From an archaeon (lineage in GTDB: Archaea > Nanobdellota > Nanobdellia > Woesearchaeales > GW2011-AR9), in the NCBI GenBank assembly GCA_030704845.1, contig JAUYKZ010000008.1, positions 1-42,512 on the forward strand: DNA of 42,512 nt, read 5' to 3'. The notes beneath the pieces were generated by a model. That model made no database searches, had not been told where the DNA came from, and saw nothing but the letters and a program-made list of their open reading frames with translations. The translations under genes and the position numbers were made by a program. Position 1 is the first letter of the stretch; each line of letters begins with the position of its first letter. This document shows, one piece after another, positions 1 to 42,512 of this stretch.

Positions 1-141
1 ATTTTTGTGAACTTTTCGTTGGTATATACAAACGCTAAATGAATTAAGTTCCAAATTTCATTTAGCGTTGAGTATATATTAACGCATTTTATATATATAA
101 AGTGCCAAAAATAAGTTCGAAAGCTTTGGCACTTTAGTATA
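1..141. repeat. Left-end hairpin array
   Basis: This noncoding stretch is a string of inverted repeats separated by TATATA-like spacers. Bases 1-20 are the loop and 3' arm (ACTTTTCGTT) of a hairpin whose complete copy is at 42471-42500. A second hairpin has arms 31-43 and 57-69 (13-bp stem, loop 44-56). The segment 79-90 equals the 3' arm of a hairpin at the right end, but its 5' partner is missing here. A third hairpin has arms 99-109 and 125-135 (AAAGTGCCAAA / TTTGGCACTTT, 11 bp). Bases 74-142 repeat exactly at 42398-42466, and 1-32 repeat exactly at 42481-42512. Two loops share AAGTTC followed by C or G and AAA. The function is unknown. Confidence 0.85.
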
Positions 142-15511: not shown

Positions 15512-15580
15512 GATTTAAGCGATTCAAATGGTAATTGAAAAAAAAGGATATAAATGGATATTGTACTCTACAGATAAATC

Positions 15581-15734
15581 AAAATCCCAATCGCAGCAAG
15601 CTGCGGGGTATTTTTAATCTTAACTGGATAATTGATTTAATAGTCGTTGCAGAGCAACGGGGTACATGAAAATTAGGAATTTTCAGTACTGAAGGGAAAA
15701 CTATCCCTTCATGTATTAGACCCAGTTAAGAAAT
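15581..15734. repeat. 154-bp structured dispersed repeat, copy 1
   Basis: This is a noncoding element present twice in the window (second copy 28909-29062) with 3 differences in 154 bases. It contains CGCAG-CAAG-CTGCG followed by GGGGTA, then outer arms CTTAACTGG and CCAGTTAAG. Inside the arms are CGTTGC-AGA-GCAACG (again followed by GGGGTA), an 8-bp TGAAAATT/AATTTTCA hairpin flanked by GTAC on both sides, and TGAAGGGA/TCCCTTCA. The paired hairpins with GGGGTA tails resemble REP or MITE-like elements. A structured RNA is the alternative. Confidence 0.85.
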
Positions 15735-15739
15735 CAAAA

Positions 15740-28891: not shown

Positions 28892-28908
28892 AATTAATTA
28901 CTAAAATA

Positions 28909-29062
28909 AAAATCCCAATCGCAGCAAGCTACGGGGTATTTTTAATCTTAACTGGATAATTAATTTAATAGTCGTTGCAGAGCAACGGGGTACATGAAAA
29001 TTAGGAATTTTCAGTACTGAAGGGAAAACTATCCCTTCATCTATTAGACCCAGTTAAGAAAT
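28909..29062. repeat. 154-bp structured dispersed repeat, copy 2
   Basis: This is the second copy of the element at 15581-15734, in the same orientation, with 3 differences. One change (CTGCG to CTACG) breaks a base pair of the first hairpin; another lies in the spacer after the left outer arm and the third lies just outside a stem. The outer arms CTTAACTGG/CCAGTTAAG and the other three hairpins are preserved exactly. It sits between the stops of two convergent genes, 17 bp after the nucleotidyltransferase and 8 bp before the next stop. No GIY-YIG-like tail follows this copy. Confidence 0.85.
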
Positions 29063-29070
29063 AAATTAAA

Positions 29071-42370: not shown

Positions 42371-42512
42371 TATATACTAAAATGCGTTAGATTTCGAATA
42401 TATTAACGCATTTTATATATATAAAGTGCCAAAAATAAGTTCGAAAGCTTTGGCACTTTAGTATATACTGAACGAAAAGTATTTTTGTGAACTTTTCGTT
42501 GGTATATACAAA
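42371..42512. repeat. Right-end hairpin array
   Basis: Three complete hairpins in TATATA-type spacers: AAAATGCGTTA with TAACGCATTTT (42379-42389 and 42404-42414), AAAGTGCCAAA with TTTGGCACTTT (42423-42433 and 42449-42459) and AACGAAAAGT with ACTTTTCGTT (42471-42480 and 42491-42500). Bases 42398-42466 equal 74-142, and 42481-42512 equal 1-32. If the ends were joined on the 32-bp overlap, the array would read as five or more hairpins with one unit repeated at a period of 156 bp. It lies directly upstream of the YchF-type gene. Confidence 0.85.

Follow-up and report, generated by a model that had tools for sequence, protein, structure and literature searches.

Both ends of the window, i.e., the entire 42,512-nucleotide contig analysed here (contig C10 of genome G000, a 97% complete assembly of 1,015,533 bases in 24 contigs), very probably represent copies of a double-hairpin transposable element of Woesearchaeota, 93 bp long and non-coding, which exists as two families (DC and AB), inserts at TA, nests within itself and would be mobilised in trans by means of its ends and its fold. 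The window is thus cut at both ends within dispersed repeats and is not a small circle. The elements are best read as non-autonomous and MITE-like, with a REPIN-like architecture, and they make up a widespread, Woesearchaeota-centred group of TA-inserting double-hairpin elements.

DC and AB share the same plan and the same length (93 bp) but differ in their stems: two hairpins in inverted orientation surround a palindromic linker, either TTTATATATATAAA or TTTGTATATACAAA. Near the right end of the window, a complete DC element (42373..42465, + strand) is composed of TA-TACTAAAA, hairpin D, the TATATATA linker, hairpin C and TTTAGTA-TA. It is followed, at the TA just outside it, by the left part of an AB element (42466..42512, + strand), i.e., TACTG, hairpin A (arms 42471-42480 and 42491-42500, + strand) and the start of the linker, the rest being missing at the contig end. 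At the other extremity, the window opens with the right part of an AB element (1..74, + strand), delimited by sequence, hairpin and nesting comparison, the left part of which is missing at the contig end; it comprises the 3' side of hairpin A (1-24), the linker GTATATAC, hairpin B (arms 31-43 and 57-69, + strand) and the outer end AGTA (71-74). Next to it lies the right half of a DC element (75..141, + strand) that AB has split within the hairpin D loop, with the TA duplicate (75-76), the 3' arm of D, the TATATATA linker, hairpin C (arms 98-109 and 125-136, + strand) and the outer end AGTA-TA (136-141). Full 93-bp AB copies occur elsewhere (e.g., L015:1484-1576). DC-type copies have the outer ends TACTAAA...TTTAGTA, and the terminal inverted repeats TATACTAAA/TTTAGTATA are present in all 35 rows of our alignment A1, one exception having TTTACTATA at the right end, while some hairpins carry an inverted loop (L133). 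As single-stranded DNA, both DC (z -6.6) and AB (z -7.2) fold into two hairpins much better than shuffled sequences do. The covariance model R1, derived from A1, matches positions 47-141 with an E-value of 1.9e-9 and the complete DC element (42373-42465) with an E-value of 6.3e-17, the latter being expected by construction, since this sequence type was included in A1. No Rfam family reaches its gathering score within the window.

The preliminary description of this DNA had reported that positions 1-32 are identical to 42481-42512 and positions 74-142 to 42398-42466, both of which were confirmed by our repeat comparison of the window. Its further remarks, that overlapping the window ends by 32 bp results in a 156-bp spacing and that hairpin A is split, the window beginning at its loop while the 5' arm lies at 42471-42480, also proved accurate. 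From these, it had envisaged either a 42,480-bp circular molecule or a contig stopping in a multi-hairpin array present elsewhere in the genome. A search of the source assembly, as it had advised, revealed other copies beyond what chance would give, with 90 and 87 matches for the two ends, many of them at 95–100% identity. Hence, the stop and the dispersal are borne out, but the supposed array turns out to be nested copies of separate 93-bp elements. Altogether, double-hairpin repeats contain 14 of the assembly's 48 contig ends (counted from match lists), i.e., both ends of C10, C18, C22 and C23, the left end of C20, C8, C24 and C19 and the right end of C1 and C12. Contigs stop at these repeats because short-read assembly is unable to traverse identical nested copies.

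The matching halves of both window junctions are supplied by other contig ends. At the left junction, AB sits inside the loop of hairpin D, which implies that the missing neighbour must bear the first half of D followed by AB, as do C22, C18 and C8; correspondingly, the left end of the window overlaps the right ends of C22 and C18 by 97 bp and the left ends of C22 and C8 by 95 bp. At the right junction, AB comes after a complete DC, so that the neighbour must bear C, AB and a flank, as do C19 and C1; here, 96 bases of the window recur identically in C19 (left end) and C1 (right end). Consequently, a 42,480-bp circle carrying housekeeping genes is scarcely conceivable: even though the window ends share 32 identical bp and complete a hairpin on joining, they overlap six other contig ends by 95–97 bp, the junction types at the two ends do not match, the first 140 bp recur almost unchanged at the start of at least two other contigs (C18 and C20) and the window encodes aEF-2, LeuRS, YchF and Mre11. 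Moreover, joining the window to itself would yield the order D-C-A-B-half D-C, which is unobtainable by any single insertion. The double-hairpin elements account for where the G000 assembly breaks, which calls for caution before such contigs are declared circular. A contig from a MAG labelled Pacearchaeota (L091; JAUYJY010000011.1) breaks off within the repeat at the very base where the window does, and has the same 96-bp overlap with C19 and C1. Its other end, too, matches an end of a G000 contig (C17:1-149, 98%), so that L091 is probably misbinned and derived from this assembly or one very similar to it.

Insertion at TA is apparent from the flanks, from nested copies and from interrupted genes. 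In the loci examined, DC-type copies are flanked by TATA in 75 of 76 cases (38 of 39 on the left, 37 of 37 on the right), and A and T predominate around 97 distinct sites, position -1 being A in 67% (symmetrised). Within the loop of D, AB copies occupy two adjacent TA positions (L004, L005 and L008-L011) and are also found in reverse orientation (L012); other copies have entered a linker, either that of DC (L007, L017, L079) or that of a third double-hairpin element (L020). Every nested AB is explained by insertion at a TA, with TA on both sides, the sequence of the DC host being known from intact copies; such self-insertion follows from the richness of linkers and loops in TA. Two genes are broken by DC (L038, L033), and their frame resumes only when the element and one TA are removed: the pieces of a methyltransferase gene match Methyltransf_25 at 1-35 and 50-97 of 97, and both pieces of the second gene match adjoining stretches of TPR repeats. 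Empty sites were deduced from these nested copies and reading frames, in which a duplicated TA and a TA target joined to an element bearing one TA look alike. At L014 (G000:C21:43030), a gene is interrupted by an AB copy; it presumably resembles a RelE/ParE-family toxin of a toxin–antitoxin pair.

Pairing within the stems is conserved, while their sequence varies freely and the outer ends, the linker and the loop motif are retained. Alignment A1 was made without structure and holds 35 of 54 distinct double elements, 19 having been removed by hand (mostly near-identical variants); its rows stem from few genomes overall, 5 from G000 and 17 from a single MAG. Across 20 stem pairs, 96.6% of the 700 cells are standard pairs, compared with 69.7% in shuffled and at most 55.1% in slid alignments. 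Two-sided changes affect 14 of the 20 stem pairs and amount to 171 cells versus 9 one-sided cells, these counts being inflated by the relatedness of the rows. The AB family, absent from A1, matches R1 at 50–52 bits. The near absence of G-U intermediates points to pairing in DNA rather than RNA, or to template-switch correction; stem covariation could reflect such correction of imperfect palindromes instead of selection on the fold.

A strict pattern identifies 24 distinct DC places, and the commonest DC form occurs 23 times in the loci examined (overlapping loci included). Across our genome collection (which may exclude G000), the strict plan pattern retrieved 70 stretches in 8 MAGs, by title six Woesearchaeota, one Pacearchaeota (that of L091) and one Nanoarchaeota, with 45 stretches in the MAG RIFCSPHIGHO2_02_FULL_33_21 and 16 in NC_groundwater_1388; a second pattern search of the 70 stretches gave 75 copies. 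Of 371 genomes sampled from the phylum, 42 have R1 matches at E <=0.001 (16 of the same family, 25 of the same order and 1 of the same class), the best match reaching E <=1e-5 in 20 of the 371; these E-values are rough, and copy numbers are lower bounds because just 11 candidates were scored per genome. The pattern scan of IMG/VR gave 0 matches, and the phage and plasmid records searched gave none either. Judged by title or abstract, none of the openly licensed PMC papers brought up by our literature searches deals with elements of this kind in Woesearchaeota.

With respect to genes, 8 of the 24 DC copies have tandem neighbours, 5 convergent and 4 divergent ones, while 6 lie inside an ORF and 1 at a contig edge; these classes rely on simple ORF calling and cover strict-pattern DC copies (to the exclusion of diverged and interrupted ones and of all AB copies). 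The flanking genes show no orientation preference of the sort that a terminator role would lead one to expect. An action at the RNA level, as transcription terminators or processing signals under selection at gene ends, is very unlikely: strong hairpins adjoining T-rich linkers would fit it, as would the CBS-domain gene abutting the element (position 142 of the window is its last base), but convergent gene pairs are not enriched (5 of 24), G-U type changes are nearly absent (9 of the 700 cells) and the elements insert within genes and nest in themselves.

No autonomous transposon sharing the ends of the elements was found via the profiles PF13358, PF01797, PF01609 and PF00589, ends being inspected at L194-L198. 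IS630-type transposases (PF13358) were detected in 0 of 10 and 2 of 11 genomes (2 of 21), and neither in G000 nor in the two pattern-richest genomes (G388 and G389); the intact copy in G013 has the probable ends TATAGAYAATTCTG, unlike those of the elements, and the copy in G009 is cut by a contig end. IS200/605-type transposases (PF01797) occur in 22 of 60 relatives and in 3 of 6 genomes of a second set. The profile PF01609, which we take to be the IS4/IS5-type transposase grouping, has a single, broken copy in G000 (G000:C8:4144-4578, L195), and the probable ends of its copies in G000 (GGCTCTGTCCAGAA), G270 (TATAGAGAG) and G388 (GTCCCATAATTC) are not TACTAAA. Tyrosine recombinases (PF00589) yielded 5 matches in G000 and are also present in 14 of 14 control genomes. 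Two of the five genes in G000 (C6:68952-71396 and C21:86315-86773) lie within about 1–3 kb of double-hairpin copies, those at C6:68150 and C21:87533, respectively, being no more than about 1 kb away, which is a weak association. Single hairpins considered as ends of a gene-bearing autonomous element appeared instead to be copies that other palindromic repeats had interrupted or cut short; for the underlying hairpin scan, a simple 200-base block-shuffle control gave 0 matches. The mobilising enzyme may belong to a family other than those searched, be encoded elsewhere or have been lost.

In the mechanism that we favour, a transposase or recombinase supplied in trans would recognise the outer ends plus the hairpin fold of the DNA, excise or copy the element and then join it at a TA, which is seen on both sides of the copies; elements have also entered older copies of themselves, thereby building the hairpin ‘arrays’. 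If the enzyme does read the fold, the many stem variants with preserved pairing represent a natural experiment in structure-guided archaeal DNA transposition, and covariation makes the recognition rule directly testable. The most specific version of this reading, in which a Woesearchaeota-specific class of TA-inserting elements is recognised by its folded double-hairpin DNA and not by its stem sequence, with a recombinase from neither the IS630 nor the IS200/IS605 family moving it in trans, is possible but rather doubtful. An ordinary MITE driven by a DDE transposase is a credible, though not a probable, alternative; it would follow an RUP-like (IS630/Tc1) logic in which nothing but the TA target and the inverted outer ends would count, the hairpins being incidental or kept perfect by template switching in replication. 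Like MITEs, DC and AB are short (<100 bp), AT-rich and non-coding, exist in many near-identical copies, end in short terminal inverted repeats, show a TA target site duplication and nest in themselves. According to an extract of PMC2229807, RUP also inserts at TA-containing targets and, compared by description, RUP of Streptococcus pneumoniae and Correia/NEMIS are likewise non-coding elements of about 100 bp with TA termini and short inverted ends; furthermore, pneumococcal repeats cluster and insert into themselves (PMC10969869, in part), as do DC and AB. In contrast to RUP and Correia, DC and AB are made of two separate hairpins, and no IS630-type transposase with matching ends was found for them in the genomes searched, this type being absent from G000 and from the two pattern-richest genomes. 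Besides, hairpins, linker and loop motif are retained across genera while the stem sequence turns over.

HUH transposases read hairpins and act on single-stranded DNA. A REPIN-like element moved in this way by an IS200/IS605-type Y1 (HUH) transposase, in which case the apparent duplication would be the TA target plus the element's own TA, is an unlikely option. In the part of PMC3116915 covered here, REPINs are bacterial REP doublets mobilised with RAYT, of which the mobile unit is an inverted palindrome pair and the spacer also has compensatory changes. DC and AB resemble them as non-coding units of two inverted palindromes, with compensatory changes and insertion into or beside one another, and PF01797 is indeed present in G388 and G389, the richest genomes by pattern. 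However, this profile (RAYT/Y1) has no match in G000, despite 97% completeness, nor in G209 or G121, and is found in just 5 of 10 element-positive genomes. The ends of DC and AB lack the GTAG or CGTC tag (those of the DC type read TACTAAA) and are both equivalent inverted ends, TA stands on both sides, the stems vary freely between conserved outer ends, linker and loop motif and the host group is another one. Finally, the double hairpin elements of fungal and sponge mitochondria, as presented in a portion of PMC2800124, are similar in combining single and double hairpins, tandem hairpins and few complementary substitutions between types; those of Allomyces are reported there without flanking duplications, whereas DC and AB are archaeal and have TA on both sides.

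Other repeats were observed as well. Within the window, positions 15576-15737 and 28904-29065 hold 97% identical copies of a second, unrelated dispersed repeat (162 nt), which contains a CGCAGCAAGCTGCG palindrome and has 11 matches in G000; in L146 and L105, a palindrome similar to CGCAGCAAGCTGCG takes the place of hairpin loops in double-hairpin elements. The MAG RIFCSPHIGHO2_02_FULL_33_21 (L109, L131, L134, L153) contains further single-hairpin families of about 47–53 bp bounded by TATA (e.g., starting with TATAGTAAGTGAC or TATAATGTCGGACAT), which are possibly additional TA-inserting elements. Beside double-hairpin copies, L102:6150-6260, L107:3400-3530 and L125:4550-4640 have in common a structured-looking stretch, possibly a repeated RNA, with ATGCTGCTGCC-like and GTTTTCGG-like motifs.
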